Part shown: positions 24,762-42,214 of the stretch, piece by piece | Layout: every line of letters starts with the position of its first letter | Position numbering within the stretch: the stretch's first letter is position 1 | From: Epilithonimonas sp. JDS | Lineage (GTDB): Bacteria; Bacteroidota; Bacteroidia; Flavobacteriales; Weeksellaceae | NCBI RefSeq assembly: GCF_021261315.1 | Contig: NZ_JAJSAX010000002.1 | Coordinates: 62,001 to 126,000, forward strand | Direction of reading: 5' to 3' | Length of the DNA stretch: 64,000 nucleotides | Made by a program: the position numbers and the translations under genes | Notes under the pieces: model-generated | What the model was told of the DNA's origin: nothing | Seen by the model: the letters and a program-made list of their open reading frames with translations, nothing else | Databases searched by the model: none

Positions 24762-27596
24762 TTAAAATCCGAATTTAATTCCCGCAACAATGGTTCTCGC
24801 TTCCGGATATTCGTTTGGATTTTTTTCCGGGCTGTAAGACTGATAATCTGTAATGGTAAATAGATTGCTACCGGTCAAAAAGATCCTGAGGTTGGTAAGA
24901 CCGATCTTCGCCACTGTGTCAGGTTTGAATGAATAACCGCAAGTGATATTTTGCAGTCTGAAGTAAGAAGCATCCTGAAGCCCCATATTGAAAATATTGG
25001 ACGGGTCATTCCCCTCATTTGGTCTTGGATAGTTTCCACCAGGATTTTCCGGCGTCCAATAATCTTGCTTTATACCATTTTTTATTCCTCTCAAGGATCC
25101 GCCTTCCAGATAGCTGTATAGAAAAGGATTATTTTTCACAACACCTTGCACAGTGTAAAAATCTGCATTGATGTCAAATCCTTTATACTCGAATCCAACT
25201 GATAAGGTACCATACCAGTCCGGCATCTGTGATGTGATCACGCGATCTTTATCATTTATGATCCCATCGCCGTTTACATCTCTTAGCTTGATGTCACCTG
25301 GCAAAGCAAGAGGCTGCGCAGAGTTCACAATATCTTCACCCTGTTGAAAAATACCTATGACATCGTACTGGTAGTACACATTGATCGGCTTACCAATGAA
25401 ACGTCTGTTGAGAATATCATCATCTTCCCTACCATCACCGTCTGCATCTCTGCCATACAAGCTGATGATCTTATTTTTGTTTTTCGTATAAGCTAAACCG
25501 ATTTTAAATTTAAAATCTGAAGTTTTGATCACATCCGCATTCAATGATACTTCAAGACCTTTGTTCTCTACTTCGCCAAGGTTGTTCCACCTGTTGCTGT
25601 ATCCGGATGAAAGATCTAACTGCTCCTGAACAAGTAGGTCTTTTGTTCTTGTGTTGTAATACTCAACCGTTGCCGTGATCCTGTCTCTGAAAAAACCAAA
25701 ATCCAATGCGGAGTTGAATGTTGTAGAAGTTTCCCATTTCAAATTGGGATTGGGCAAAGTTGGCCCAGGGATATATCCGGAGACCTGATTACCACCTATG
25801 ACATAATTGCTCTGGTCTGCTGTACTCTGACTCAATCCAGGCGAGATGGCTTCATTGCCCACACTTCCGTAGCTGAATCTAAGTTTTAAATTATTGAGGA
25901 AATTTAAATTTTCCATAAAATTTTCCCTGTGAATATTCCATCCAATATTGGCTGACGGAAAAGAGGCCCATTTGTTATTTTTACCAAATACTGTGGAGCC
26001 ATCAATTCTTCCTGCAATTGTTACATAATATTTGTTATCATAATCATACTCCAGGCGTCCGACAGCAGATACAATTCCTCTGTTATATTCTGTAATGGTT
26101 GGTGTATTGAGTAATGCAGATTGCAATCCATTGATTCCTAAGATATCATTCGGGATGTTTTTAGAAGCATTCTCAAAATCATTTCGGTTAGTTTTGGAAA
26201 TACTCTGGACAACGGTAGCAGCGAAATGGTTTTTTTCTGCCAATTTGAAATTGTAGGTAAAGATATTTTCCAACTGCCATTCTACCTCATCCTGGAATTG
26301 AATACTGCCGCTCCCTTGGTTGTTATTGGCAATCCCAGCAACGGACTGCGTCGTATTATATGATTTTCTCTTGTAATTCCAGGATCTTCTGCTGGCATTC
26401 ATTCTATATTTAAAACCCCTAAAAGGTGTAAAGTCTACAAAGAGGTTGAGAATGTCATTTCTGTTCTGTACAAAATTGGTCGTCTGGTATAGATCGATGA
26501 GTGGATTTTTATTTTCGGCAAAACCTCCGGGCAATAGTCTGAGTGAACCATCATCGTTATAAACGCGTCCAAGAGGCGATGTCGTAATAGAACTTAAAAT
26601 GACGCCTTCATTATTTGGATTATTGGTCTCTGAAAATTGAAAGGAAGTGTTCAAGCCCACTTTCAGGGTGTTGCTGATTTTTTGATCAGCATTCAATCTG
26701 ATTCCTGTTTTGTTAAAATCGGAATTGGGAATCACACCTTTGGTTCCAATGTAATTCACACTGCTGAATATACTGAATTTGTCACTGCCTGATGAAAAAT
26801 TGATCGCGTGGTTTTGTGTTTCACCTGTTCTGAGCATAAGTTTTTCCCAGTCAATATATTTCCCGGTCTGTACACTTTCCAATTCTAATGCAGAAAAAAT
26901 CTCACTGTCTGGCCTGTATACGCCTGCGTTGTTGGTTCTGAAAGCCTCTCTCTTTAATTGGGCAAATTCCTCACCACTGTAGATATCAAAATTTCTGTTG
27001 ATTGTTTGAAAGCCCGAAAATCCATTATAAGTCACTTTGGCTTTACCAGTTTTTCCTCTTTTTGTGGTAATAAGTATGACACCATTCGATGCTCTCGCAC
27101 CATAGATGGATTGTGCAGCGGCATCTTTTAAAACCTCCAAAGATTCTATATCATTTGCATTGACATCATTGATGCTCCCAACCCTTACTCCATCAGCAAT
27201 GACGATTGGATTATTTCCTCCAGAGATCGATCGCTGACCACGGATCTGAATATTTGATGAGCTGCCAGGTGCACCATTGGCAAGTGTCACCTGCACTCCT
27301 GCAGCCTTTCCACGTAACATTTCACCGACGTCCGATGTAGCTACTTTTGTAAGATCCTCCGCATTGACTTTGACCACAGAACTGATGACATCACTTTTCT
27401 TTTTTGCGCCGTACCCAATGATCACGACCTGCTCTATTTCTTTGGAGGCTCCAACCAAAGTGTCTTTATCAGATTTTGGAGTGGTCTGAGCCTGAACAGC
27501 TACGTGCCCTGAGAGTAGAAATGCAACTGCTATGAGTCCTATTTTTTTGCCATTGTAGTGTTTGGAAGGAATAGTATTCTTGTCGAATTTTTTCAT
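24762..27596 (-). CDS. SusC/RagA-type TonB-dependent transporter
   Basis: A 944-residue outer-membrane barrel. After a long signal sequence (to about Val-Gln-Ala-Gln, residue 37) it goes almost directly into a TonB-box-like Glu-Gln-Val-Val-Ile-Ile-Gly-Tyr-Gly, the plug domain (about 65-180, with Gln-Ile-Arg-Gly-Gln-Arg-Ser-Ile and Ala-Ser-Asn-Gly-Val-Ile-Leu-Ile-Thr-Thr-Lys) and the barrel ending in aromatic Phe. The carboxypeptidase-regulatory-like domain that most SusC proteins have before the plug is absent. With SusD it imports oligosaccharides using TonB energy. Its own promoter appears to lie in the 200-base gap after the HTCS gene. Confidence 0.92.
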   Translation of the reverse strand: MKKFDKNTIPSKHYNGKKIGLIAVAFLLSGHVAVQAQTTPKSDKDTLVGASKEIEQVVIIGYGAKKKSDVISSVVKVNAEDLTKVATSDVGEMLRGKAAGVQVTLANGAPGSSSNIQIRGQRSISGGNNPIVIADGVRVGSINDVNANDIESLEVLKDAAAQSIYGARASNGVILITTKRGKTGKAKVTYNGFSGFQTINRNFDIYSGEEFAQLKREAFRTNNAGVYRPDSEIFSALELESVQTGKYIDWEKLMLRTGETQNHAINFSSGSDKFSIFSSVNYIGTKGVIPNSDFNKTGIRLNADQKISNTLKVGLNTSFQFSETNNPNNEGVILSSITTSPLGRVYNDDGSLRLLPGGFAENKNPLIDLYQTTNFVQNRNDILNLFVDFTPFRGFKYRMNASRRSWNYKRKSYNTTQSVAGIANNNQGSGSIQFQDEVEWQLENIFTYNFKLAEKNHFAATVVQSISKTNRNDFENASKNIPNDILGINGLQSALLNTPTITEYNRGIVSAVGRLEYDYDNKYYVTIAGRIDGSTVFGKNNKWASFPSANIGWNIHRENFMENLNFLNNLKLRFSYGSVGNEAISPGLSQSTADQSNYVIGGNQVSGYIPGPTLPNPNLKWETSTTFNSALDFGFFRDRITATVEYYNTRTKDLLVQEQLDLSSGYSNRWNNLGEVENKGLEVSLNADVIKTSDFKFKIGLAYTKNKNKIISLYGRDADGDGREDDDILNRRFIGKPINVYYQYDVIGIFQQGEDIVNSAQPLALPGDIKLRDVNGDGIINDKDRVITSQMPDWYGTLSVGFEYKGFDINADFYTVQGVVKNNPFLYSYLEGGSLRGIKNGIKQDYWTPENPGGNYPRPNEGNDPSNIFNMGLQDASYFRLQNITCGYSFKPDTVAKIGLTNLRIFLTGSNLFTITDYQSYSPEKNPNEYPEARTIVAGIKFGF

Positions 27597-27625: not shown

Positions 27626-27695
27626 CAAATATGTCTGATAATCATATTTATTTGGGTGTATAAATATGCTTTTTGCGGGGTCATAATGTATGAAT
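27626..27695 (-). promoter_or_regulatory. susC promoter with ACCCC motif (candidate HTCS site)
   Basis: Read on the minus strand, ATTCATACATTATGACCCC (27695-27677) is followed after 43 bases by CATATTTG (27633-27626), one mismatch from the TAnnTTTG -7 box. The susC start is 27596. The motif matches those ahead of the genes starting at 33978, 34464 and 42244. Confidence 0.6.
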
Positions 27696-27796
27696 CAACA
27701 CAACGTGCTGAAAAACAATACATTAACTTAATGCTTTGAATTTGTTAAAACTAAAATGATGGTGAAGATGTACAAATATGTGAGGTTGTAGATCAA

Positions 27797-30700
27797 TTAT
27801 ACCCCGGAATTCGGATTACTTTTATAAGATGTAGGAGAAACTTTGTACACTTTTTTGAACTCACGGCTAAAATGTTTACGATCATTGAATCCGACCATAA
27901 AAGCAACTTCTGAAATTGGATGGGTTGTATTCAGAATAATATCAGCTGCCTTTTTCATTCTAAGCTGTTTAATAAGACTCGCCACAGAATGGTTGGTAAG
28001 TGCAGTGACTTTTTTGTACAGTATGGTTCTGCTCATACCGATCTTATCAACCAGCATATTGACGTCGAATTCAGAATTCTCCAGATTTTCTTCTATCACG
28101 CGCATCAGTTTTTTGATGAATGCTTCTTCGGGCGTGGTAAGACTGCTCAAGTCTGAGTCTATTATAAAATTACCACTGTATTTCTTTCTGAAAATCTCCT
28201 GGGCAGACAGTAAATTGGCAATACTCAGTTTAAGTTCCTGCGTATTAAAAGGTTTAGTGATATAAGCATCTGCACCTGTAGAAAGCCCTTCTATTTTATG
28301 ATCTATAGATGCTTTAGCGGTAAGAAGCAATACTGGTATGTGACTGGTACTTTCATTGGTTTTTACGATGCGACAAAGTTCTATGCCATCCATCTCAGGC
28401 ATCATAATATCACTGATGATAAGATCTAAGATCTCGGTCTCCAAATAGTTTGCGGCCTCCTTACCGTTGGCAAATTCGACTGTATTGTAATCGCCGGACA
28501 AAATATCGACAATAAATTTGCGTACATCTTCATTGTCTTCGACAACCATTAAAGTCTTCTTATCCTTGTCAGGGAAATCAGCAAATGCAATTTTATCATT
28601 GGTTCCAATGGTCGGAGAATCTATGATCATCTGCTGGAAATCCTCGCCATTACTTTCAATGATCTGATCTTCGGACAAATGTTTGTTACCTAATTGCAAT
28701 TTGATTAGGAAAACAGTCTTGGCCCAGGTGCCTTCTTCATCCGGTGTAGAAATTTCACCTTTATGCAATTCTACAATACTTTTCGAAAGTGCCAGCCCCA
28801 CGCCGCTTCCCATATTTTGTACCCCTCTGTCATCCACTTGAAAAAATCTTTCGAAAACACTTGTGCGATTGTTCTCTGGGATGCCAATTCCGTTATCTTT
28901 AACTTTGATGAATACAGCATTCTCATCAGGAGTACCTTTTTCCACTGCAAAAACTATTTTACCATTTTTTTTAGTGAATTTGAAAGCGTTGGAAAGCAGG
29001 TTGTAAACAACCTTTTCCATCTGATTTTTGTCAAAATAAGCAATGATGACATTGGAGTTGAGTACGAATTTGAAATCGATATTCTTTTCAGCCGCCAATC
29101 CTTTATAGGATTCAAATATTTCAAAACAGAAGGACACTACATCTTGTCTTTGGCAGTAGATTTTCATATAGCCCTTTTCAGCTTTCCTGAAATCCAGCAG
29201 TTCGTTGACAAGTTTAAGAAGACGGTCAGAATTCTGCTTTATTGTTTTGAGTTTAGCATTGGTCTGTGGATCTTTTTCATAAGACAACAATTCTTCCACT
29301 GGCCCTTTGATGAGCGTGAGCGGGGTTCTTATCTCGTGTGAAATATTTGTGAAAAAATTGATCTGTGTTGTAAGAATCTCTTCTTTTCTTTCATTTTCGA
29401 CCTGTTCCATAAATATTTCCCTTCTAAGTTTTAGACGGTATTTTATGAAACGATAAACAGTGTAATTGGCTCCAACAAAAATGATCAAATACAACAGATA
29501 TGCCCACCATGTCCTATACCAAGGTGGCAGTATTACAATTTTCAGTTTTTTAATATTCTTGTTCCAGCTTTGGTCTTCATTGGTAGATTTTATGGATAAC
29601 GTATAATTTCCCGGATCCAGATTGGAAAGATTGATCCTGTTTTGGGTACCTATAAAATGCCATTGATCCTCAGAAAGTGCATTGTCCAACTTGTAGGCAT
29701 ACTTACTCTTTTGCGGATTGATAAAATTAAGACCCGTAAATTCCAATCCTATATAACCTTGGTCATAGTTGATCGTGATCTCCGAAGTTTCAGAGATAGG
29801 CTGCTTTAAAATCCCGTCTGCTTGATCTGCCTCTACGATCTCGTTATTTACTATCAGCTTCGTAAGGACTATTGGTGTGTTATTAGAAGTTTTTATTAAT
29901 TTCTGAGGATCAAAAAGCAAGAGACCTTTGGAAGCTCCGAAAGCTATCATATTGTGATTGATCTTTGCAGCAGAATTGTATAAAAATTGTTTTACAGAAA
30001 GACCGTCCGCAGATGAAAAACGTGTAATTTGAAAGTCGGACGCTTTCAAATTGCTTCCATCGTTTTTAATTTTGATCTTAAAAAGAAAATCTTCTGCTCC
30101 TACCCATAAATTGCCCTGGGCATCTTCGGTAATACTTTTAACAGAGGCATCCGTAAAGCCTTTTTCCTTATTAAGCGCAAAAAACTTTTGCTTGTTCTCA
30201 TTGAGGTAATATAGGCCATCATAATCTGCTCCAATCCAAAGTCTTTTTTTTGAATCTGTATACATGACTGTCAGACTGTTATTATCCAGAGGCTTCGCAT
30301 TGTTTGCCCGATAAATCTTTGAAATTCTGTTGAGTTTCTTATCAAAAAAATTAAGCCCGTTTTGTGTAGTGATCCAAACACCATCGCTCCTGTTTTCTAA
30401 ATCCATTACAAAATTATCGGACAATCCATTCGCAGACCCATCATTTTTATAGTTTAAAACTGTACCGTTTGGCAGAATTTTCGTTAACCCATTGCCATCT
30501 GTTCCTATCCAAATATAGCTTCCATCGACAAGAATGGATGTAATCGGTCTCTCCCCTCTTTCAGCAGAATTTAGAAAAATCTGAGTGAATTTTTTTGAGG
30601 TTTTATTAAATTCATATAGTCCATTGAAGGTGCCACACAGAAGCGTATTGGCATCTTTTGCAGCCAATGATGTGATGATATTTTTAATATTTTTCTCATC

Positions 30701-31918
30701 ATTGTTATCTATTGCGAAATAATTAGAGGTTTTGTTTTGAAGGTTAAGATAGTTCAATCCTCCGCCAGAAGTTCCTACCCAGATGCTTTGATCATTTTCC
30801 TTTAGGATCGCGCTTGTAGCAGCATTGTTGAGACCAAATCCTGCTTTTGTAACCTCTGAGATCTTGGTAAAATTGAGATTGGATCTGTTGTAGATATTAA
30901 TCGCTCCTCCCGAGGTTCCTATCCACACAGAACCAGTATGATCTTTCAGAAAACATTTCAGATCATTATCACTTAGGCTGAAAAGATTATCTGGATTATG
31001 TTTTATTCTTTTAAATGTTTTATTATAATTACTGAAGAGACTTAATCCTCCTTTTGTTGCAAACCAAACGGTATTTTGGTCCCACTGGATGATATCATTG
31101 ATCCAGTTGGATGATATAGAAGCTGTGTTCCCAGGATCGTGCTTGAAATGTGAGAGGATTTTTTGTCCTGAGGAAAATAAAAACGCTCCAGAACTTTCCG
31201 TAGCAAACCAAAGATCGCCTTTGCCGGTCTTTATAATTTTTCTCACCTTGCTATTGATAAGCTCTAGATTTGAGGACAATTCTACAGGTAATGGTTTCTG
31301 ATGGCCAGTTTTCGGATCAAAGCATTTCAGACCTTTTGAAGTTCCTACAAACATCCCATAATTTGAATCATAAAATAAAGAAAGAACCCTGCTTTTGAAC
31401 AATTCGGAATTTTTGTTGAATTTTTCCAGCTTCTTGGTAGACCTTTTAAGTTTTTTGACACCGCCAAACGTTCCCACCCAAAGATTGCTTTGTCCATCTT
31501 CGGCAAATGCAGCGATATAATTACTTCCACCTTTCTCTTTGGTTACATCCAGCGATATAAAATTATTGGCATTTTTATTATAAAAATTGAGTCCGTGGTT
31601 TGTACCGATCCACAGGTTCTGATCGCGGTCTTCAAAAATCACATTGATGTGATTGTTGCTCAGGTTGCCATTCGTTTGTTTATCTCTTGCATACTTCTTG
31701 TAGCTGTAACCATCATAACGGAATAGTCCGTTTTCAGTCCCAATCCACACAAATCCGGATTTATTCTGGATCATACTGGAGATCATACTGGGCGAAAAGT
31801 CATCGTCATAATTGATCTGATCGAAATGAAGTGATGCTTCCTGAGCAGGTGAAATGCCAGAAATAAAAACAAAAACAATATAGATTAATACATCGGTTAC
31901 TTTTTTCAACAGATTCAT
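27797..31918 (-). CDS. Hybrid two-component system regulator (HTCS) of the locus
   Basis: A 1373-residue SusR-like sensor-regulator. A signal peptide is followed by about a dozen Reg_prop propeller repeats (about 35-690, motifs of the type Gly-Leu-x-x-Tyr/Phe and Trp-Ile/Val-Gly-Thr), a Y_Y_Y domain (about 700-775) and one membrane helix (about 795-815). HisKA with His861 (Ser-His-Glu-Ile-Arg-Thr-Pro), HATPase, a receiver with Asp1170 (Ile-Ser-Asp-Ile-Met-Met-Pro) and a C-terminal AraC helix-turn-helix complete it. It binds an oligosaccharide in the periplasm and activates the locus. It sits inside the minus-strand operon between uxuA and susC. Confidence 0.94.
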   Translation of the reverse strand: MNLLKKVTDVLIYIVFVFISGISPAQEASLHFDQINYDDDFSPSMISSMIQNKSGFVWIGTENGLFRYDGYSYKKYARDKQTNGNLSNNHINVIFEDRDQNLWIGTNHGLNFYNKNANNFISLDVTKEKGGSNYIAAFAEDGQSNLWVGTFGGVKKLKRSTKKLEKFNKNSELFKSRVLSLFYDSNYGMFVGTSKGLKCFDPKTGHQKPLPVELSSNLELINSKVRKIIKTGKGDLWFATESSGAFLFSSGQKILSHFKHDPGNTASISSNWINDIIQWDQNTVWFATKGGLSLFSNYNKTFKRIKHNPDNLFSLSDNDLKCFLKDHTGSVWIGTSGGAINIYNRSNLNFTKISEVTKAGFGLNNAATSAILKENDQSIWVGTSGGGLNYLNLQNKTSNYFAIDNNDEKNIKNIITSLAAKDANTLLCGTFNGLYEFNKTSKKFTQIFLNSAERGERPITSILVDGSYIWIGTDGNGLTKILPNGTVLNYKNDGSANGLSDNFVMDLENRSDGVWITTQNGLNFFDKKLNRISKIYRANNAKPLDNNSLTVMYTDSKKRLWIGADYDGLYYLNENKQKFFALNKEKGFTDASVKSITEDAQGNLWVGAEDFLFKIKIKNDGSNLKASDFQITRFSSADGLSVKQFLYNSAAKINHNMIAFGASKGLLLFDPQKLIKTSNNTPIVLTKLIVNNEIVEADQADGILKQPISETSEITINYDQGYIGLEFTGLNFINPQKSKYAYKLDNALSEDQWHFIGTQNRINLSNLDPGNYTLSIKSTNEDQSWNKNIKKLKIVILPPWYRTWWAYLLYLIIFVGANYTVYRFIKYRLKLRREIFMEQVENERKEEILTTQINFFTNISHEIRTPLTLIKGPVEELLSYEKDPQTNAKLKTIKQNSDRLLKLVNELLDFRKAEKGYMKIYCQRQDVVSFCFEIFESYKGLAAEKNIDFKFVLNSNVIIAYFDKNQMEKVVYNLLSNAFKFTKKNGKIVFAVEKGTPDENAVFIKVKDNGIGIPENNRTSVFERFFQVDDRGVQNMGSGVGLALSKSIVELHKGEISTPDEEGTWAKTVFLIKLQLGNKHLSEDQIIESNGEDFQQMIIDSPTIGTNDKIAFADFPDKDKKTLMVVEDNEDVRKFIVDILSGDYNTVEFANGKEAANYLETEILDLIISDIMMPEMDGIELCRIVKTNESTSHIPVLLLTAKASIDHKIEGLSTGADAYITKPFNTQELKLSIANLLSAQEIFRKKYSGNFIIDSDLSSLTTPEEAFIKKLMRVIEENLENSEFDVNMLVDKIGMSRTILYKKVTALTNHSVASLIKQLRMKKAADIILNTTHPISEVAFMVGFNDRKHFSREFKKVYKVSPTSYKSNPNSGV

Positions 31919-31945
31919 AATTACCTCAAATGATTATTATCAATT

Positions 31946-33130
31946 CTAATTTGTATCAAAGCTGCGGACGATACCCAATTCCAAACCTCGTAATTCGGCT
32001 AATCCTCTAAGTCTTCCTATCGCAGAATATCCGGGATTGGTCTTCTTTTGCAGATCATCGAGCATCTGATGCCCGTGGTCCGGACGCATTGGGATCACTC
32101 GGTCACCCCTTCCCTGCTGTTCTCTTTTACGTTCTTCTAAGATCACCTCTTTTACCAACCCGTACATATCGACGTCACCTTCTAGATGATTGGCTTCATA
32201 GAAATTTCCCTTATCATCTCTCTTCGTACTTCGAAGATGTAAAAAATGGACTCTATTTGCAAAGCGCTGAAATATTTTTACAAGGTCATTATCCTCTCGA
32301 ACTCCCAGTGATCCTGAACAGAAAGTCATTCCGTTTGCAAGATCCGGAACTGCTGAAAATAGCAAAGCATAATCTTCCTCTGTACTTACTACTCTTGGCA
32401 GCCCCAATATAGAATATGGCGGATCGTCTGGATGGATGCACATCATTGCATTATTTTTGGAGGCAACGACAACAATTTCCTGGAGAAAGAGAATCAGATT
32501 TTGTCTCAGTTGGTCTGCATCAATTCCTGCATAGTTGTCCAAAATTGCCTGGAAACTCTCCAAACTATAGCCTTCTTCCGCGCCTGGTAAACCCGCAATT
32601 ATATTGTTGACCAGTTTTGTTTTCTCTGTTTGGGATAGTTTTTCAAGATATATTTTGGCTTGTTCTTTTTCCTGCTGTGAGTATTGTGACAATGCACCGG
32701 TTCTTTGAAGCAAATACAGGTCAAACGCAGCAAATGCTGTCTGATCGAACCGCAGGGCTTTGGAGCCATCCTGCAATTCAAATTCAAGATCTGTACGGGT
32801 CCAATCCAGAACAGGCATAAAATTATAGCAAATGATGTTGATCCCGCAATGCGCCAGATTTTCAATGCTTTGCTTATAATTTTCGATAAATTTCTGAAAA
32901 TTCCCAGTACGGGTTTTTATATCTTCGTGAACGGGAATGCTTTCTACAACATTCCATCGAAGTCCTTCATCTTCGATTATTTTTTTTCTTATATTGATTT
33001 CCTCTACAGTCCATACAGAACCGTTTGGAATGTGATGAAGTGCGGTTACAATACCAACTGCTCCAGCCTGTTTTATATCTGCTAAGGAAACTGGATCCTT
33101 CGGTCCATACCAGCGCCAAGATTGTTCCAT
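31946..33130 (-). CDS. uxuA: D-mannonate dehydratase
   Basis: A 394-residue cytosolic enzyme that starts [12 protein letters not shown], as UxuA proteins do. It contains the Ile-Val-Thr-Ala-Leu-His-His-Ile-Pro, Ile-His-Pro-Asp-Asp-Pro-Pro, Phe-Cys-Ser-Gly-Ser-Leu-Gly and Arg-Pro-Asp-His-Gly-His motifs that bind metal and substrate. It dehydrates D-mannonate to 2-keto-3-deoxy-D-gluconate in glucuronate breakdown. It lies 17 bases after the UxuB-type SDR. Glucuronate isomerase (uxaC) and the KDG kinase and aldolase are not in this window. Confidence 0.94.
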
Positions 33131-33147
33131 TTTTTTATTTTTTATAT

Positions 33148-33978
33148 TTAAACACCACTAAATGCGCTAAAACCACCATCCACAGGGATCACAATTCCAG
33201 TAACGAAAGAAGATCTTTCATCACATAGAAACAATACAGAACTGATCAGATCTTCCGGGTTTCCAAATCTTCCCGCAGGTGTATGCGAGATAATAGACTT
33301 TCCTCTTTCCGTCAGACTGCCATCGTCTGATGTTAGCAGGCTTCTGTTTTGATTTGTCAGGAAAAATCCTGGTGCAATAGCATTAACACGGATACCAACC
33401 TTGGAAAAATGAACAGCAAGCCATTGAGTCAAGTTCGCGGTAGCAGCTTTTGCAGCGCTGTAAGCAGGAATTTTGGTTAATGGAGTTACAGCACTCAAAG
33501 ATGAGATGTTGAGAATGCTGCAGCCAGTTTTACCCACCATATCTTTTGCAAATACTTGTGTTGGAAGAAATGTTCCCAAGAAATTCAGATCGAAAACCGA
33601 TCTTATGCCCTCAGATCCGAGATCGAAGATCGTTCTAAATTCAGGATCATTACGATCCAGATCTGTTTGTGAAAGGTAAGGCTCAGATGTAGTTCCAAGA
33701 GGATGATTGCCTCCCGCCCCATTGATCAGAATATCGCAGGTTCCAAACTTTTCTGTGATCTGCGATTTTGCTTTTTCTAAGGCCTCTTTGTTTAATACAT
33801 CTGCTTCAAAAATGTAAGCAATGCCACCATCCTGTTCAATCTCATTTTTCAGACTTTCTGCTTTCCCCATTTCTCTTGCCAACAGAGCAATTCTACAACC
33901 TTCCTTTGCTAAAGATTTTGCTATGACACTGCACAAAACTCCAGTGGAGCCTGTGATAACAACGACTTTGTTTTTCAT
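33148..33978 (-). CDS. SDR-type D-mannonate oxidoreductase (fructuronate reductase)
   Basis: A 276-residue short-chain dehydrogenase with the NAD(P) motif Thr-Gly-Ser-Thr-Gly-Val-Leu, the Asn-Gly-Ala-Gly-Gly loop and the catalytic Ser plus Tyr-Ser-Ala-Ala-Lys. The start is the ATG at 33978 (Met-Lys-Asn-Lys-Val-Val-Val); a longer frame from 34020 would include the -7 promoter box at 34001-34008. Position next to uxuA and similarity to the SDR-type UxuB of Bacillus indicate reduction of D-fructuronate to D-mannonate. First gene of the minus-strand arm. Confidence 0.85.
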
Positions 33979-34000
33979 ATTTTTTTGATAATCAGACTCA

Positions 34001-34069
34001 CAAAAGTAATTTATCACCACAATCTGATGCAGTTCAAATATCTTTTTTTAGGGGTAAAGACGTCCGAAT
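34001..34069 (-). promoter_or_regulatory. Promoter of the minus-strand arm with ACCCC motif
   Basis: On the minus strand ATTCGGACGTCTTTACCCC (34069-34051) is followed after 42 bases by TACTTTTG (34008-34001), an exact TAnnTTTG -7 box. The first gene starts at 33978. The motif belongs to the same set as those upstream of susC and the two plus-strand genes. Confidence 0.65.
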
Positions 34070-34354
34070 TAAAAATATAAAAAAAATATTATATGTCTAA
34101 ATTTAAATTCATTTGACCGTAGAATCATTAAGAATCTGTTTGAAATATGGGGCTTTATCATAAATATCATCAAACAAATTCAGACAGCACTATAATAAGA
34201 TTTACACGCTAAATTTTGGATATAAAAATTTGAGTATTGCAATCTCATCAGGTTTTTTTAACCGTTAAGAATATTTGTCACTACCAATTATTGTAATGAA
34301 TCTATCCAAGTAGAATATCCCTGTCAACCATTCATTATACGGTACGTCTGCCAA

Positions 34355-34422
34355 AATGTACATTTCTTACCCCAATCTAAAATGTTTAAGACCCGTTTTA
34401 TTTATTATTTATATAAAATTTG
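34355..34422 (+). promoter_or_regulatory. Promoter of the plus-strand arm with ACCCC motif
   Basis: AATGTACATTTCTTACCCC (34355-34373) is followed after 41 bases by AAAATTTG (34415-34422), one mismatch from TAnnTTTG, ahead of the gene at 34464. The region between this and the divergent promoter (34070-34354) is AT-rich with no other feature I can support. Confidence 0.6.
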
Positions 34423-34463
34423 TGGCAGATAAAATATAATCAAAATTAAAAACCATTAGAGTT

Positions 34464-35891
34464 ATGAATTTAAAAAATACAGACTTTTTGAAAAGCATAC
34501 TTTTACTTTTGTTTTCTGCACTTTTATTTTCCTGTGTTGAGGAAGAGATAAGAGAGGTCACCCTTTACGACAAGCCTCATACAGAAGCCAGTGCTTCTCG
34601 TACTGATATTAAATTTGGAGAAACTGTAGATTTCAAAAGTACCTCGTTCAAACATCTTACTACAACATGGACATTTGCTGGAGGCAGTCCTGCTTCATCC
34701 GTCAATCCTGATGCTACAGTTGTTTACAATAACCCAGGCACCTATGATGCAAAATTGGTCATAAAATATATAGATAATACAATTGAGACAAAACTGTTTA
34801 AAATTATTGTTAAAGGTATTGATCCGCCTTTGCCGTATGGTGGAACTGCAGTGATTATCCCTGGTACAATTGAAGCAGAGAATTATAATCTTGGTGGTGA
34901 AGGCATAGCTTATCACGATACCGAAGAGCAAAATCTTGCTGTGCTAAACGGAAGTCCACGTTACAGAACAGACGATGGTGTGGATGTTCAAATGGGCAAT
35001 AACATCAATAATATCAGCTACACACAAGCTGGAGAATGGAGCAACTATACAATCACTGTTCCTGCTACGGGTATATATGATTTCGATTTCCGGGTGGCGT
35101 CTGGTGATGCTTCTGGTGGAAAATCAATTAAACTTCAGCTGGTCAATCCTAATACAGGGGTTGCGACTGATCTAGGACAGACAGGTAATTTCCAAAATAC
35201 AGGTAGCTATAATACCTACATTTCCAAAAACGTTACCGGAATTAATCTGACTGAGGGTCAAAACACATTTCGTGTATTATTTACAGGTTCTAACACCAAT
35301 CTTGATAAGATCAACATTAAGGTCAGCGTTCCTGCACCACCGATCGATGGCGTTGGAATTTTTACAGAAAAAGATATTGTGAGTTCAAATCCCGGCATAG
35401 CACCACCACCGAATGGCGGAAATATGGCGATCACAATTGTTACCACCAATACGAATCACGGTACAAAGGCCTTATGGTATCATTTTGATCCTGCAGGAAA
35501 TGGCAGCCCACAGAACGGATTTGCCCTTTCTCATATGGATCTGACTGTTTCTCCTTATAACGCAACAGCTTACAACAATTTGAATGTTGCTGTAAAATCC
35601 AGCACCCCAAAAAAAGTAAGAATAAGATTGAACACCAACTCCGGAAATTATTGGGTAACACTTAATCCTGGAAATCCTGCTTATGGGATGTTGTGGGACG
35701 GGCAATGGCATGAATTGACAATCCCTTTTTCCCAAATTCTGAGAGATGGCAATGGTGCAGCGCTTTCTACTGTTCCTGCAGCCAAGTCGAGCATCAAGCA
35801 ATTTACAATACGTACTGATGACAGCGATTACAGTATTGTGCCGAACTCTTTCGATTATTATATTGACGATATTTACTTTACGCCAAACTAA
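34464..35891 (+). CDS. Surface glycan-binding lipoprotein (PKD, CBM6 and C-terminal binding module)
   Basis: A 475-residue lipoprotein (Leu-Phe-Ser-Cys, Cys24). A PKD/Ig-like domain (about 38-115: Phe-Gly-Glu-Thr-Val-Asp-Phe, Pro-Gly-Thr-Tyr-Asp-Ala-Lys-Leu) is followed by a CBM6 module (about 128-288: Gly-Thr-Ile-Glu-Ala-Glu-Asn-Tyr, Gly-Glu-Trp-Ser-Asn-Tyr) and a jelly-roll module (about 300-475) ending Asp-Tyr-Tyr-Ile-Asp-Asp-Ile-Tyr-Phe. There is no catalytic motif. It fills the SusE/SGBP role of holding the polysaccharide at the surface. The C-terminal module is related to the N-terminal domain of the T9SS-tailed protein at 42244. First gene of the plus arm. Confidence 0.85.
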   Translation: MNLKNTDFLKSILLLLFSALLFSCVEEEIREVTLYDKPHTEASASRTDIKFGETVDFKSTSFKHLTTTWTFAGGSPASSVNPDATVVYNNPGTYDAKLVIKYIDNTIETKLFKIIVKGIDPPLPYGGTAVIIPGTIEAENYNLGGEGIAYHDTEEQNLAVLNGSPRYRTDDGVDVQMGNNINNISYTQAGEWSNYTITVPATGIYDFDFRVASGDASGGKSIKLQLVNPNTGVATDLGQTGNFQNTGSYNTYISKNVTGINLTEGQNTFRVLFTGSNTNLDKINIKVSVPAPPIDGVGIFTEKDIVSSNPGIAPPPNGGNMAITIVTTNTNHGTKALWYHFDPAGNGSPQNGFALSHMDLTVSPYNATAYNNLNVAVKSSTPKKVRIRLNTNSGNYWVTLNPGNPAYGMLWDGQWHELTIPFSQILRDGNGAALSTVPAAKSSIKQFTIRTDDSDYSIVPNSFDYYIDDIYFTPN

Positions 35892-35955
35892 CTTTTGCAA
35901 AAAATTAAAGAAGTAGTATCGAAATGCCCATACTCATCAATATTAAAAATTAGAA

Positions 35956-38232
35956 ATGATCAAAACCACTTTATTCTGTTTTGCTGTCTTCGGTGCTACA
36001 AATCTTACTGCGCAGAACAGATCGCACCTGGATATAAAAAAACCTCTGGAGGAGCGAATTACATTACTGATGGATCAAATGACACTCGAAGAAAAGGTCG
36101 GCCAGATGAATCAGTACAATGGCTTCTGGGAAGTGACAGGTCCTGCTCCTCAAGGAGGCTCATCCAAGATAAAATATGATCATCTCAACAGAGGTCTGGT
36201 TGGATCATTACTCAATGTGCGGGGTGTTCAAAAAGTGCGCGAAGTGCAAAAAATAGCCGTTGAAAAAACAAGATTGGGGATCCCTCTGATCATTGGTTTT
36301 GATGTAATACACGGTTACAAAACACTAAGCCCAATTCCTTTAGCCGAAGCTGCCAGTTGGGATATGGAAGCTATAAAAAGATCAGCTGCCATAGCTGCAA
36401 GCGAAGCTGCTGCAAGCGGCATCAACTGGACATTTGCTCCCAATGTAGATGTTACAACTGATGCCCGCTGGGGGCGAGTGATGGAAGGCGCTGGTGAGGA
36501 TCCGTTTCTCGCCAGTAAGATCGCAGTGGCCAGGGTGGAGGGATTTCAAGGTGATAATTTTTCCGGGACCAACACTATCGCAGCTTGTGCAAAACATTTT
36601 GCAGGATATGGATTTGTAGAATCCGGTAAAGAGTACAACAACGTGGATATGAGCTTATCCCGGTTGTACAACTCCGTCTTGCCTCCTTTCAAAGCGGCTA
36701 ATGATGCTGGTGTCAAGACATTTATGAATGCTTTCAATACATTGAACGGAATCCCGGCCACCGCCAATCGTTTTCTTCTCAGAGATATTCTCAAAACAAA
36801 ATGGAATTTCCAAGGATTCGTAGTATCCGACTGGGCGTCTATACGGGAGATGATCTCTCACGGATATGCGAAAGACGGTGCAGAAGCAGCTCACAAAGCA
36901 GCAGAAGCAGGCTCTGATATGGATATGGAATCTTACTTATATGTGAACGAACTGGCGAACCTGGTTAGGGAAAAGAAAGTAGACATTGAGGTCATTAACG
37001 ACGCAGTAAGGAGAATTCTAAGGTTAAAATTTGAAATGGGTTTATTTGAGGATCCTTACAAATATTGCAACAAAAAAAGGGAAAAAGAAGTGATTGGCAG
37101 TATATCTAATCACGATGGTGTTCTGGATATGGCCAAAAAATCTATTGTCCTTTTAAAAAATGACAATGATCTGCTGCCACTCAAAAAGTCCGGGCAAAAG
37201 ATCGCATTAATTGGTGCTTTGGCAAGCGATAAGACAAGTCCTTTGGGAAGCTGGCGAATTGCGGCAGAAGATGATACAGCAGTTTCCGTTTTGGAAGGGA
37301 TGAAAAAATACAAAAACAGTTCCGTTACCTACACTCCAGGAACAGCAGTCTTTGCAGGGAAGCCAACTTTTACGAAAGAATTAGTGATTAACAATAATGA
37401 TAAGAGCGGTTTTGAAAAGGCCATCGCAACAGCAAAACAGGCAGATGTAGTAGTGATGGTCCTGGGCGAACACGGTTTCCAAAGTGGTGAAGGGAGAAGC
37501 AGAACAAACCTCGATCTGCCAGGCAATCAGCAAGAGTTGCTGGAAGAGGTTTTTAATGTCAACAAAAATATAGTTTTGGTTCTGAATAACGGAAGACCGC
37601 TCGCTATCCAATGGGCAGCAGATCATATTCCTGCTATTGTAGAAGCTTGGCAACTAGGCAGTCAGAGCGGAAACGCTATCGCTCAAGTTCTTTATGGTGA
37701 TTATAATCCTAGTGGCAAATTACCAATTTCATTCCCTCGTAACGTTGGACAGGTTCCCATTTATTATAACCACTATAACACTGGAAGACCTACCAATTCA
37801 GAGAATAATGTTTTCTGGTCGCACTATTCCGATGTAGACAAGACGCCGCTTTTTCCTTTTGGTCACGGATTAAGTTATACCAAATTTGATTATACAGGGA
37901 TGACAATCAATAAAAAGACATTCTCTATCGGAGAGCCTGTAAACGTATCAGTTTCTGTTAACAATATAGGCAGTGTTGATGGTAAGGAAGTGGTTCAGCT
38001 TTACATAAGAGATGTGAGCGGAAGTATTTCCAGACCGGTGAAAGAGCTGAAGGGATTCGAGTTGATATCTCTCAAAAAGGGCGAACAAAAAACCATACGA
38101 TTCACTTTAAATAAGGAAGATCTGGGTTATTACGACAATGACGGCAATTATCTTTTGGAATCGGGTATGTTCAAAGTATTTGTTGGAACTAATTCTGATG
38201 AGCTGCTAGAAACAGAATTCGAATTAAAATAA
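35956..38232 (+). CDS. GH3 beta-glucosidase (first copy)
   Basis: A 758-residue exported enzyme with a signal peptide (to about Thr-Ala-Gln). A GH3 TIM barrel carries nucleophile Asp292 in Val-Val-Ser-Asp-Trp, the alpha/beta sandwich carries likely acid/base Glu512 in Ser-Gly-Glu-Gly-Arg-Ser, and a fibronectin-III-like C-terminal domain follows from about 655. The substrate-binding Lys-His and Arg-Trp-Gly-Arg motifs are present. It probably releases glucose from the non-reducing end of beta-gluco-oligosaccharides in the periplasm. Related to, but clearly distinct from, the second GH3 at 39945. Confidence 0.92.
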   Translation: MIKTTLFCFAVFGATNLTAQNRSHLDIKKPLEERITLLMDQMTLEEKVGQMNQYNGFWEVTGPAPQGGSSKIKYDHLNRGLVGSLLNVRGVQKVREVQKIAVEKTRLGIPLIIGFDVIHGYKTLSPIPLAEAASWDMEAIKRSAAIAASEAAASGINWTFAPNVDVTTDARWGRVMEGAGEDPFLASKIAVARVEGFQGDNFSGTNTIAACAKHFAGYGFVESGKEYNNVDMSLSRLYNSVLPPFKAANDAGVKTFMNAFNTLNGIPATANRFLLRDILKTKWNFQGFVVSDWASIREMISHGYAKDGAEAAHKAAEAGSDMDMESYLYVNELANLVREKKVDIEVINDAVRRILRLKFEMGLFEDPYKYCNKKREKEVIGSISNHDGVLDMAKKSIVLLKNDNDLLPLKKSGQKIALIGALASDKTSPLGSWRIAAEDDTAVSVLEGMKKYKNSSVTYTPGTAVFAGKPTFTKELVINNNDKSGFEKAIATAKQADVVVMVLGEHGFQSGEGRSRTNLDLPGNQQELLEEVFNVNKNIVLVLNNGRPLAIQWAADHIPAIVEAWQLGSQSGNAIAQVLYGDYNPSGKLPISFPRNVGQVPIYYNHYNTGRPTNSENNVFWSHYSDVDKTPLFPFGHGLSYTKFDYTGMTINKKTFSIGEPVNVSVSVNNIGSVDGKEVVQLYIRDVSGSISRPVKELKGFELISLKKGEQKTIRFTLNKEDLGYYDNDGNYLLESGMFKVFVGTNSDELLETEFELK

Positions 38233-38398
38233 TATACTGACCTATCGCAAAAGTGTAGAATTCCATCCAATAAAAATATTGGAGTGTATAACTTATGATA
38301 TTATCCACCACATTGCTGGTTAGAATCAAGAGCTGATCAGCTTAAATAATATTTTCAAATTTTTCTTTTATCAATAATAATCTTATAATCTGTCAATT

Positions 38399-39853
38399 GT
38401 GAAAATTAAAATAAACTGTACGCAAAAAAGTGTCCTTGCGCTTATTGCGCTGATTATTAATCTGTATTCTGAGATCAAAGCACAGGAAGCTGCAACACCT
38501 GAAATTTCAGCAAATCATTACCATAGTGTATTGGCCAGACAGAATGCAGAAGATCCTTTGTGGAAGCCTTATGTTGCAAAAACCATCGACCGGCTACCGG
38601 GATATCAATCATCAAAAGATCCGGCTATCAATAGATTTGGCGGGTACAAAACATTTCAGCTTGAGGCAACTGGTTTCTTCAGAACAGAGAAAAAAGATGG
38701 CAGATGGTGGATCGTAGATCCTTTGGGTAATCCTTTTATACACAAAGGTGTTGCTGTGCTCAACCCTGGAAACTCTGAAAATCAAGCAATTGCATTTAAT
38801 AAAAAATATAAAACCGGTAAAAATTGGATTGCCAAAGAAACAAGATTCCTTAAAAAAAATGGTTTCAACGGTGCAGGTGCCTGGTCGAATGTCGACTTGA
38901 TCCGTTCATCTGCAAAACCTTTAGTCTATACCGTCATCATAAGCCCAATGGGAGCTTACAAAGCCGAACATATAAAAAAATACGGTGGTAAATATGAAGA
39001 AGCGGGCTGGCAAGGCTATCGTTATGATCTGGTGATGGTATTCGATAAAGCATTTGACCGTTATGTGGATCAGGAAATTTCCAAAATCGTAAAATACAAA
39101 GATGATCCATTTCTTCTTGGTTATTTTACAGACAATGAACTGCCTTGGGTAGATGATGCTTTGGACAGACATTTGAAATTTCTTAACAAAGATGAGGAAG
39201 GATATATCGTCGCAAAAAGATGGCTGGACGATCGCAAACAAAAGAATGCATCTTTAGAAGATATTACAGATGCTGACAGACAGGATTTCACAGGTTTTTA
39301 TTTTGAAACCTATATGAAAAAAGTGACTGCCGCGATTAAAAAATATGATCCAAAGCACCTCTATTTGGGCTGCCGTTTCAATCAAGAGCTGGATGAATTG
39401 GACAATCCAAAAATATTTGAGGTGGCGGGAAAATATATGGACATCATTTCCATCAATCATTACAGAAAATGGGAACCCGAACAGCCTATTCTATCCAACT
39501 GGATGGCCTGGTCAGGGAAACCATTCATCATCACAGAATGGTACACCAAAGGTGAAGATTCAGGTTTGCCCAATAAAACTGGCGCCGGATGGAATGTCCA
39601 CACTCAAAAAGAAAGAGGCTATTTTTACCAGAATTTCGTTATTGAATTGTTGAAAAGCAAAGGTTGTGTGGGATGGCATTGGTTTCGGTATCAGGATAAT
39701 GACCCGGACAATTTAAAAACAGACTACTCAAACCGTGATTCTAACAAAGGTATTATAAATAGTGCCTTTCAATATTATACGCCTCTCATCGAAAATATGA
39801 AGATCATAAACGATAATGTCTACGGTTTAACTCAATACTTAGACTCCAAATAA
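38399..39853 (+). CDS. Clan GH-A-like glycoside hydrolase, family uncertain
   Basis: A 484-residue exported protein that starts at GTG (38399) with a good signal peptide ending Ile-Lys-Ala-Gln. The Arg-Trp-Trp-Ile-Val-Asp-Pro-Leu-Gly-Asn-Pro-Phe motif is common in agarase-like and other TIM-barrel hydrolases. Two carboxylates have clan GH-A context: Glu247 in Thr-Asp-Asn-Glu as acid/base and Glu380 in Ile-Ile-Thr-Glu-Trp as nucleophile. I cannot assign a CAZy family from sequence reading alone; GH50-like or GH158-like enzymes are the nearest in feel. Its place between two GH3 genes points to an endo- or exo-acting beta-glycosidase of the same substrate. Confidence 0.78.
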   Translation: MKIKINCTQKSVLALIALIINLYSEIKAQEAATPEISANHYHSVLARQNAEDPLWKPYVAKTIDRLPGYQSSKDPAINRFGGYKTFQLEATGFFRTEKKDGRWWIVDPLGNPFIHKGVAVLNPGNSENQAIAFNKKYKTGKNWIAKETRFLKKNGFNGAGAWSNVDLIRSSAKPLVYTVIISPMGAYKAEHIKKYGGKYEEAGWQGYRYDLVMVFDKAFDRYVDQEISKIVKYKDDPFLLGYFTDNELPWVDDALDRHLKFLNKDEEGYIVAKRWLDDRKQKNASLEDITDADRQDFTGFYFETYMKKVTAAIKKYDPKHLYLGCRFNQELDELDNPKIFEVAGKYMDIISINHYRKWEPEQPILSNWMAWSGKPFIITEWYTKGEDSGLPNKTGAGWNVHTQKERGYFYQNFVIELLKSKGCVGWHWFRYQDNDPDNLKTDYSNRDSNKGIINSAFQYYTPLIENMKIINDNVYGLTQYLDSK

Positions 39854-39944
39854 TATTCTTTCAAAGCAATCTGATCTTCTCGTTCTGGAATTTACTGAAA
39901 ACTTTTCCTCAGAATGGAATTAGCAAAGAAATATAATATTCGAT

Positions 39945-42143
39945 ATGAAAAATATCTTTTACGCAGCAAGCATTCTTGTAATGAGTTGCTCATCGGCCAG
40001 TGCTCAAAAACAGCCACTTTACAAGAACAAAGATGCTCCTGTAGAGAGACGGATCGATGATCTGATAAGTCAGATGACCCTGGAGGAAAAAATAATGCAA
40101 ATGAACCAATGGACGTATGGGAAAAATGCCAACCCCAACAATATTGGTGAGCAGATGAAAGCCGTAAAACCAGAAATTGGTTCTTTGCTATACCGAAGTA
40201 CGAACCCAGAATACCGCAACCAAATCCAGAAAAAGGCTGTTACCGAAACACGCCTGGGAATTCCTATTATATTTGGATTTGATGCCATACACGGATACAA
40301 AACGATTTTTCCAATTCCGCTGGCTCAAGCCTGCTCATGGAATATTGATCTGGTAAAAAGATCCAGTACGATTACCGCAAAAGAAAGCTGGCTGTCTGGA
40401 TTGGACTGGACTTTTTCGCCAATGGTAGATGTTGCCAGGGATGCCCGCTGGGGAAGGATCTCAGAAGGTTACGGAGAAGACACTTACGCCAATTCAGCTT
40501 TTGGTGTTGCTGCCATCCAAGGTTATCAAGGGAAGGATCTGAAAGACAAATATACCATTGCCGCTAGCTTGAAACATTACATCGGTTACAGTATGTCTGA
40601 GGGTGGCCGGGATTATCACTACAGTGACGTATCACAACAGACCCTTTGGGAAACCTTCCTCCCACCTTTCGAAGCTGGCATAAAAGCAGGAGCAGCCACT
40701 GTGATGAGTGGTTTCAATGATATTTCCGGTGTTCCTGCATCAGCCAATCATTACACCCTTACGGAAATTCTCAAGAAAAAATGGAAGCACGACGGTTTTG
40801 TGATCTCAGATTGGGGATCAGTAAAAAATCTCGTAGTGCAGGGCGTCGCCAAAGATCACAGAGAAGCAGCAGAAAAAGCATTGCTTGCCGGTGTGGAAAT
40901 GGATATGGTCGATAACCTTTACCTGGAATATCTTCCGGAATTGGTAGCTACAGGAAAAATTAAGATGCAGACCATTGATGATGCAGTGAGAAGGATCCTG
41001 CGGGTCAAAATGAATCTCGGTCTGTTTGAAAATCCTTACGTCGATATGGTGCCGGAGGCTGAGAGATATTTGCTGCCGGACTATCTGGAGATCGCGGAAG
41101 AATTGGCTCAGGAATCTATGGTTTTATTGAAAAATGATAACCATCTCCTTCCATTGGATTCAAAATATAAAAGCATTGCTGCTATTGGTCCCATGGTAAA
41201 AGATTCTGTGCACATCATGGGATTTTGGGAAGGAATGGGTGATCCTAAAGATGTAAATACCATTTTTGATGGTTTGACCAAAGAATTCGGTAAGCTATCA
41301 AAAATTAATTATGCTATAGGCTGCGATTTTGAAGGCGAGGACAGAAGTGGTTTTTCCAAAGCATTGGAAGTTGCAGATCGATCAGATATCATACTTGTTT
41401 TTCTGGGTGAAAAAAGAAATTGGAGTGGCGAAAATGGTTCCCGCTCCACTATTGCATTACCAAAAATCCAAGAAGATCTTGTTGAAGAACTATCCAAAAC
41501 GGGTAAACCTATTATTCTAGTGCTTTCCAGCGGAAGACCTTTAGAATTAATTCGATTAAACAAACTGGCTGATGCAGTATTGGAAATCTGGCAACCCGGA
41601 ACGATGGCTGGAGCTGCTGTATCGGGCATACTGTCAGGAAGACACAATCCATCCGGGAAACTCTCAGCCACTTTTCCGCAAACGACGGGTCAAATTCCAA
41701 TCTATTATAATATGCGACAGTCAGCAAGGCCAGACGCTGGACATTACCAGGATATACCAAGAGATGCATTGTATTGGTTCGGTCACGGACTCAGCTATAG
41801 TAACTTTGAGTATGGAAAAATAAAACTGTCGAAAAACAAAATTCAGAAAGGTGAAAAAATTGTGGCAGAGATAGAAATTACCAACAAAGGAACTGTGGAT
41901 GGGAAGGAAGCGGTACTTTGGTATATCAATGATCCTGTTGCAAATATTTCCCGACCAATGAAAGAACTCAAATTTTTCGAAAAAAAAATGATCAAAGCAG
42001 GAAAAAAGGAGATTTATCGCTTTGAAATCGATCCTGAAAAAGATCTGGCCTACGTAGACAGCATTGGTGAAAAACACTTAGAGTCAGGGGATTTCTATAT
42101 CATCATCAATAATGAGAAGGTAAAATTTGAGTTAACGGACTAA
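39945..42143 (+). CDS. GH3 beta-glucosidase (second copy)
   Basis: A 732-residue exported GH3 enzyme with nucleophile Asp289 in Val-Ile-Ser-Asp-Trp, likely acid/base Glu496 in Ser-Gly-Glu-Asn-Gly-Ser, and a C-terminal fibronectin-III-like domain. The barrel entrance differs from the first GH3: Met-Asn-Gln-Trp-Thr-Tyr replaces Met-Asn-Gln-Tyr-Asn-Gly, and the acid/base loop is different. The pair may therefore split linkage types or chain lengths. The start of the mature protein (Cys-Ser-Ser-Ala-Ser) could be a lipobox (Met-Ser-Cys), so membrane anchoring is possible. Confidence 0.92.
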   Translation: MKNIFYAASILVMSCSSASAQKQPLYKNKDAPVERRIDDLISQMTLEEKIMQMNQWTYGKNANPNNIGEQMKAVKPEIGSLLYRSTNPEYRNQIQKKAVTETRLGIPIIFGFDAIHGYKTIFPIPLAQACSWNIDLVKRSSTITAKESWLSGLDWTFSPMVDVARDARWGRISEGYGEDTYANSAFGVAAIQGYQGKDLKDKYTIAASLKHYIGYSMSEGGRDYHYSDVSQQTLWETFLPPFEAGIKAGAATVMSGFNDISGVPASANHYTLTEILKKKWKHDGFVISDWGSVKNLVVQGVAKDHREAAEKALLAGVEMDMVDNLYLEYLPELVATGKIKMQTIDDAVRRILRVKMNLGLFENPYVDMVPEAERYLLPDYLEIAEELAQESMVLLKNDNHLLPLDSKYKSIAAIGPMVKDSVHIMGFWEGMGDPKDVNTIFDGLTKEFGKLSKINYAIGCDFEGEDRSGFSKALEVADRSDIILVFLGEKRNWSGENGSRSTIALPKIQEDLVEELSKTGKPIILVLSSGRPLELIRLNKLADAVLEIWQPGTMAGAAVSGILSGRHNPSGKLSATFPQTTGQIPIYYNMRQSARPDAGHYQDIPRDALYWFGHGLSYSNFEYGKIKLSKNKIQKGEKIVAEIEITNKGTVDGKEAVLWYINDPVANISRPMKELKFFEKKMIKAGKKEIYRFEIDPEKDLAYVDSIGEKHLESGDFYIIINNEKVKFELTD

Positions 42144-42145
42144 TT

Positions 42146-42214
42146 GTCCAAACATTTCTACCCCTATTAAAGAACATTTTGATTCCTCTACATTTTAAAA
42201 CAAAATTAATTTCG
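42146..42214 (+). promoter_or_regulatory. Promoter of the T9SS-tailed gene with ACCCC motif
   Basis: ACATTTCTACCCC ends at 42164 and is followed after 42 bases by TAATTTCG (42207-42214), one mismatch from TAnnTTTG. The gene starts at 42244. This suggests that the last gene of the arm can also be transcribed alone. Confidence 0.5.

Follow-up and report, generated by a model that had tools for sequence, protein, structure and literature searches.

A polysaccharide utilisation locus occupies positions 20094-43083 of the window, by which we mean the whole stretch of 64,000 nucleotides of Epilithonimonas sp. JDS DNA analysed here. The locus encodes an HTCS. Which transcripts does this regulator control, and which bases does it bind? 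The original prediction proposed that the HTCS recognizes a short string, ACCCC, found at a fixed distance from the -7 box of four promoters. Answered at this level, the question gives a locus whose sensor has no known ligand a defined regulon, together with predictions down to single bases for the half-sites, the register to the promoter and autoregulation.

The locus consists of a minus-strand arm, from GH5 to uxuB, and a plus-strand arm, from the PKD/CBM6 protein to the T9SS-tailed protein:

20094..21224, minus: GH5, endoglucanase-like
21238..23070, minus: GH2, beta-glucuronidase/beta-galacturonidase-like, near structures 6d1n and 7vqm
23113..24726, minus: susD (PF07980)
24762..27596, minus: susC (TIGR04056)
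27797..31918, minus: HTCS, with Reg_prop propeller, Y_Y_Y, HisKA, HATPase_c, receiver and AraC-type HTH_18 (PDB relatives 4a2l and 12aw); the proposed binder
31946..33130, minus: uxuA, mannonate dehydratase (TIGR00695, 586.4 bits, cut-off 199.55)
33148..33978, minus: UxuB-type SDR (D-mannonate oxidoreductase), first gene of uxuB-uxuA-HTCS (NF006132, 415.5 bits, cut-off 281)
34464..35891, plus: PKD and CBM6 protein, the putative surface lipoprotein of the original prediction
35956..38232, plus: GH3
38399..39853, plus: g10, hydrolase related to PDB 5t3b, its C-terminal part also to agarases
39945..42143, plus: GH3
42244..43083, plus: protein with T9SS sorting tail

Since UxuA and the UxuB-type SDR exceed their NCBIfam cut-offs, the substrate would be expected to contain uronate; these mannonate pathway genes, together with GH2, GH5, the two GH3 proteins and the 5t3b-like hydrolase, suggest a uronate-bearing glycan. 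The hydrolase g10 has no Pfam match; it may be a GH50 enzyme. The longest uxuB reading frame begins at a GTG (34020) upstream of the promoter's -7 box and so contains the box (34008-34001) within it; the ATG at 33978 is likely the better start.

A direct repeat in register with the -7 box

The four promoters carry the following sites, each given with its box:

34029..34063, minus: candidate uxuB operator; half-site 34063-34051 ACGTCTTTACCCC, 9-nt spacer, half-site 34041-34029 ATATTTGAACTGC
34001..34008, minus: uxuB -7 box TACTTTTG, 42 nt after ACCCC, 0 mismatches to TAnnTTTG
27655..27689, minus: candidate susC operator; ACATTATGACCCC, 9 nt, ATATTTATACACC
27626..27633, minus: susC -7 box CATATTTG, 43 nt after ACCCC, 1 mismatch
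34360..34395, plus: candidate operator of the CBM6/PKD arm; (A)CATTTCTTACCCC, spacer, TGTTTAAGACCCG
34415..34422, plus: CBM6-arm -7 box AAAATTTG, 41 nt after ACCCC, 1 mismatch
42152..42186, plus: candidate operator of the T9SS-tailed gene; ACATTTCTACCCC, 9 nt, ACATTTTGATTCC
42207..42214, plus: T9SS gene -7 box TAATTTCG, 42 nt after ACCCC, 1 mismatch

Each ACCCC string was found, base for base, where the original prediction had placed it and on the strand it had named, and the predicted distances to the box (42, 43, 41 and 42 nt for uxuB, susC, the CBM6 protein and the T9SS gene) were borne out. All four boxes lie within one mismatch of the TAnnTTTG consensus, three of them one base off it. As a description of the motif, ACCCC held in part: the four sites are real, but the string is only the distal half of a longer element. 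Each promoter has two related 13-bp elements arranged as a direct repeat, 22 bp apart. When the four sites are matched against themselves, an offset of 22 gives 30 of 52 identical bases and the next best, 20, gives 22 of 52; none of 20000 shuffles attained 30 at any offset from 13 to 39. Thirteen sites listed from other genomes also peak at offset 22 (90 of 169 bases, followed by 79 at offset 23). In the CBM6-arm operator the TTT-to-ACC distance is one base longer than in the uxuB, susC and T9SS operators. The site, so redefined, is a direct repeat of 35 bp that keeps a nearly constant distance of 41-43 nt to the -7 box.

ACCCC occurs 32 times in the window, counting both strands, and in a scan of distances from 30 to 51 nt only these four of the 32 have a box (at most one mismatch) at 41-43 nt. 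With the downstream 70 nt shuffled, the chance of such a box is 0.015-0.049 per window site; boxes at all four sites by chance are unlikely, as the original prediction held, though its sites were picked with the box in view. Further one-mismatch boxes lie 26 nt after ACCCC at susC and 24 nt after it at the T9SS gene.

Recurrence of the sites with the HTCS

Are the sites scattered over the genome? In the 4.17-Mb genome of strain JDS (G000) the 13-mer form of the motif has exact matches at three places only, each within the locus. Since the pattern derives from those very sites, that they match is built in; what counts as the result is that no other exact match exists. With up to two mismatches there are seven matches (three for the reversed control), and the CBM6 form with up to three mismatches has one (control, none). 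Across 23 genomes of the genus we found 12 exact matches, three each in G000, G015, G017 and G022; these are the four genus genomes that encode this HTCS (91-100% identity). The other 19 have no exact match, two of them (G001 and G020) being only 73% and 88% complete. When one mismatch is allowed, a match appears in nine of the 23. The motif is thus not scattered: its exact matches lie in the locus alone and, genus-wide, in HTCS-bearing genomes alone. Because the exact sites lie in the same locus as the HTCS gene, this co-occurrence by itself does not single out the HTCS, nor can it fully separate it from another regulator.

The one-mismatch match outside the locus in the JDS genome, at C1:385033, looks like another conserved sequence and was set aside. 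It lies on the minus strand (385033-385060, in L115), where a small ORF has its 5' end; the flanking genes, named by eye, are sugar-transferase-like on one side and T9SS-tail-like on the other. A ATATNTTTACNCCTTGAAAATNATGTTT-like string of this kind, unrelated to the present locus, is found in four genus genomes (G000, G003, G013 and G015); of these, G000 and G013 were inspected, and in both the string stands where a small ORF begins.

The twelve genes of the locus are syntenic in G015, G017 and G022 and also in G170, which belongs to another genus (HTCS identity 71-72%). In alignments the operators and boxes stand out as conserved islands. All four operators are conserved upstream of the orthologous targets in G015, G017 and G022; G170 has a site at three of the four targets, susC weakly among them, and there the T9SS operator was found neither by alignment nor as a matrix match. 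The core reads ACCCT instead of ACCCC in the CBM6 arm of G015 and G017 and before g10 of G170. Between G000 and G170 (uxuB, CBM6 arm, susC) the half-sites match at 8-11 of 13 bases and the 60 bases upstream at 22-27 of 60, in ungapped comparison; the half-sites are likewise better kept than the 60 upstream bases between G000 and Flavobacterium sp. DG2-3, the nearest named relative, whose HTCS orthologue is about 55% identical. Sites precede susC in DG2-3, G449 and G618 and, weakly, in G430. When the whole DG2-3 genome was searched by pattern with up to three mismatches, the matches did not rise above noise (72, against 91 for the reversed control); the search was used solely as a pointer to the susC site, which its position then confirmed.

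A matrix built from the genus's four promoters with the box left out was run over the other loci. It returned eight non-training matches scoring at least 15; two are registers of one DG2-3 site, leaving seven sites in four of the five other loci with HTCS orthologues. In G170 these precede uxuB (29.7), the CBM6 arm (22.9) and g10 (21.0); susC has one in G449 (15.9) and in G618 (21.2), where a gene after GH2 has another (17.2). The last is the susC site of DG2-3 (L158:19640-19696, minus strand): the register counted scores 19.7 and has the box, while a register one repeat upstream scores 20.6 and is without such a box, so that this site may consist of three tandem half-sites 22 bp apart. Each of the seven has a box, at most one mismatch off, at a distance of 42 or 43 nt; in flanking sequence a 3-nt window offers a box at a rate of 0.056. 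Because the three susC sites share ancestry, the seven amount to about five independent events. The stretches scanned held no other match of at least 15. The fifth orthologous locus, G430, reached 13.4 at most, and none of five control loci, with HTCSs of 32-34% identity, exceeded 14.2. Two susC sites score lower: 12.1 in G170, the top of its stretch, with half-sites out of register and the box at 42 nt, and 8.2 in G430, at rank 4 below matches in coding sequence, with the box at 43 nt. On leaving one site out, uxuB, susC and T9SS each ranked fourth, behind the three training sites; the CBM6 site ranked 130 unless shifted by one base. The search in homologous loci bore out the original prediction: the motif recurs at the same spacing beside HTCS orthologues of 72% and about 55% identity.

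In DG2-3, G430, G449 and G618 the HTCS gene is itself preceded by a site, with the core ACCCC and the spacer ttaaaaaga; each of the four has a TAnnTTGC box, and the distance is 42 nt without exception. Autoregulation in these genomes is no more than likely, given the low scores (9.6 in DG2-3, 13.4 in G430, 11.4 in G449 and 11.2 in G618, at ranks 3, 1, 3 and 4) and the poor proximal halves. The HTCS and susC genes are neighbours in G430, G449 and G618; in DG2-3 they are split between two contigs. A 76-base sequence is identical at the ends of both, but it is repetitive and does no more than suggest adjacency.

A common list of 17 selected sites comprises the four of the window, the seven matrix sites of at least 15, susC in G170 and in G430, and the HTCS promoters of DG2-3, G430, G449 and G618. 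The last two groups, six sites in all, were taken by position and in part with the box already known. Every site on the list has a box at 41-43 nt when TAnnTTGY counts as well as TAnnTTTG with one mismatch; with TAnnTTTG as the only pattern the number falls to 15, the HTCS promoters of G430 and G618 failing.

Two further observations concern the placement and reach of such sites. The G170 site before the 5t3b-like hydrolase gene (L111:7141-7175, box at 42 nt) has no counterpart before g10 in the window, and from one genus to another the operators seem to change place within the locus. In G437 a 22-bp repeat with an ACCCC core, CTAAAAACACCCC-9-GCATTTCCACCCC (L177:7458, minus strand), lies just after a gene for an HTCS of about 32% identity and 135 nt before a 407-aa ORF; it scores 10.6 and has a box, TAGTTTAG, at 43 nt. 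The ACCCC core may be shared more widely.

The HTCS as the probable binder

What binds the repeat? The HTCS combines a propeller with Y_Y_Y, HisKA with HATPase_c, a receiver and an AraC-type HTH in one chain. The receiver has the motif SHIP in G000, G015, G017 and G022 and NHIP in G170 and DG2-3; S or C stands at this S/CHIP motif in 84% of HTCSs (PMC11253607). The DNA-binding domain is 96-98% identical to those of G015, G017 and G022, 81% to that of G170 and 59% to that of DG2-3. The predicted recognition helices, IGMSRT[IV]LYKKV and VGFNDRKHFS[RK]EFKK, which we assign from knowledge of the family, are present in all six proteins aligned (G000, G015, G017, G022, G170 and DG2-3); three outgroup HTCSs (G105, G104 and Polaribacter) differ at these positions. 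The offset of 22 bp also fits predicted HTCS operators of Bacteroides, which are direct repeats averaging 21 bp and are read as dimers two helical turns apart (PMC3878776). Genome specificity, recurrence in orthologous loci and the direct-repeat shape support the original prediction that the motif is the operator of the locus HTCS (27797-31918), and we consider it very probable, on these sequence comparisons, that this protein binds the 35-bp site as operator of the four transcripts.

The predicted regulon, which comprises both divergent arms together with susC and the last gene, is supported as well, with two amendments: the T9SS site is missing in G170, and the HTCS gene should probably be added. 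With gaps of 17 nt between uxuB and uxuA and 27 nt between uxuA and the HTCS gene, the uxuB operator should drive the HTCS too, and the gene is probably subject to positive autoregulation.

Could another protein bind the repeat, with the HTCS acting at other sites? Dedicated regulators are common for genes of uronate catabolism, and an AraC-type regulator is encoded at 47300-48217, about 4 kb beyond the locus; either this protein or a uronate regulator of another family might recognize the sites. The distribution of the AraC protein does not follow the sites among the genus genomes, and we reject it as the binder. Near copies (95% and 83%) occur in G003 and G013, both of which lack exact sites, whereas G015 and G017 have exact sites and AraC relatives of only 53-55%; G022, which has the sites, holds a 79% copy. 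Moreover, the sites persist with the HTCS in DG2-3, G430, G449 and G618, in which the stretches compared contain no uxuA or uxuB relative. A regulator encoded elsewhere is on this evidence an improbable binder.

Still less probable is that the sites are real HTCS operators that serve mainly for repression or poising instead of activation. The Bacteroides HTCS BT2391 represses its own locus (PMC11253607). Here, however, about 20 nt separate the end of the proximal half-site from the -7 box, which is left uncovered, and 15 of the 17 listed promoters have no TTG at the -33 position; both features suit an activator, and the receiver's SHIP is the motif of most HTCSs. That the shared motif and its spacing reflect chance or promoter composition is hardly credible. 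The boxes are degenerate enough that 124 of 2210 upstream-flank positions (5.6%) offer one in a 3-nt window, but the shuffles never reproduced the repeat, every one of the seven sites found blind to the box has one, and the half-sites outlast the 60 bases upstream in the comparisons of G000 with G170 or DG2-3. We return, then, to activation by the HTCS.

The promoter geometry is consistent with an activator that substitutes for the -33 element of promoters: at 15 of the 17 listed sites no TTG is found between 17 and 26 nt ahead of the box. In F. psychrophilum the -7 box covers -12 to -5 (PMC9723704); counted on that scale, the distal half-site would run from about -67 to -55 and the proximal one from about -45 to -33. 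We propose that the propeller senses the target glycan in the periplasm by binding one of its oligosaccharides, as its family would suggest, and that phosphoryl transfer to the receiver then frees the AraC-type domain, as described for Bacteroides HTCSs (PMC11253607). Two DNA-binding domains, presumably of a dimer, would sit head to tail on half-sites two helical turns (22 bp) apart. The proximal domain would occupy the place of the -33 element and recruit polymerase. Four transcripts, with limits drawn from gaps and strand, would be switched on together: uxuB-uxuA-HTCS, susC-susD-GH2-GH5, the CBM6/GH3 arm and the T9SS-tailed gene.

Comparison with known operators

Does the geometry extend to other HTCSs? 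Of 80 relative loci we used L023 and L024-L062, leaving out L063-L102 (L051 and L060 are non-Bacteroidota by title). Among 25 susC-like upstream regions (59 loci, other HTCS-like proteins), self-similarity before the eight exact boxes peaks at a period of 21-22, a maximum reached in 1 of 200 shuffles; two of the eight regions, L006 and L181, are near copies. The effect is weaker and small for the 46 one-mismatch boxes, and 313 control ORFs of the same loci give a smaller peak at 21. These data are suggestive, a lead only as regards all HTCSs. That operators across Bacteroidota share half-sites 21-22 bp apart, a proximal half-site replacing the -33 element and a near-fixed distance to the box is conceivable, and we put it forward tentatively, with rather more doubt than confidence. 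If it is true, the regulon of an unstudied HTCS could be read from DNA alone.

A mechanistic parallel is E. coli AraC at araI1-I2 of pBAD. There too AraC-type domains occupy direct-repeat half-sites, with a separation of about 21 bp and with the proximal half-site adjoining the -35 region; AraC differs in being a soluble one-component regulator that works with another sigma factor and other promoter boxes.

The promoters themselves resemble the sigma-A promoters of F. psychrophilum, which have a TAnnTTTG box at -12 to -5 (PMC9723704). A TAnnTTGY variant, SM5, is found at that position as well (PMC9723704), and it is this form that the boxes before the HTCS genes of DG2-3, G430, G449 and G618 look like. 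The parts of that study on which we draw describe no HTCS operator, and in the open-licence literature we found none for flavobacteria (PMC7366714 and PMC12125979, in the parts drawn on, are not on them).

Direct-repeat HTCS operators are already known. Those of Bacteroides thetaiotaomicron and its relatives likewise have two direct-repeat half-sites about two helical turns apart in promoters of the cognate locus; HTCS_Rgu-1, for instance, has two 12-bp sites with a 9-bp spacer (PMC3878776). The likeness is one of shape, taken from the descriptions in the parts of that paper drawn on here; identity of motif or register with any one HTCS lies outside the comparison. The present operators differ in their 13-bp halves, their period of 22, their ACCCC core and the bacteria in which they occur, in their register of 41-43 nt to the -7 box and in that uxuB-uxuA-HTCS would itself be under an operator. 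What is added to the known structure is this register, the recurrence of the sites in Flavobacterium sp. DG2-3 and relatives, and probable self-activation. An operator structure known from Bacteroides is thereby extended to these bacteria, and the nearly constant distance to the -7 box may serve as a rule for reading the regulons of other glycan loci.
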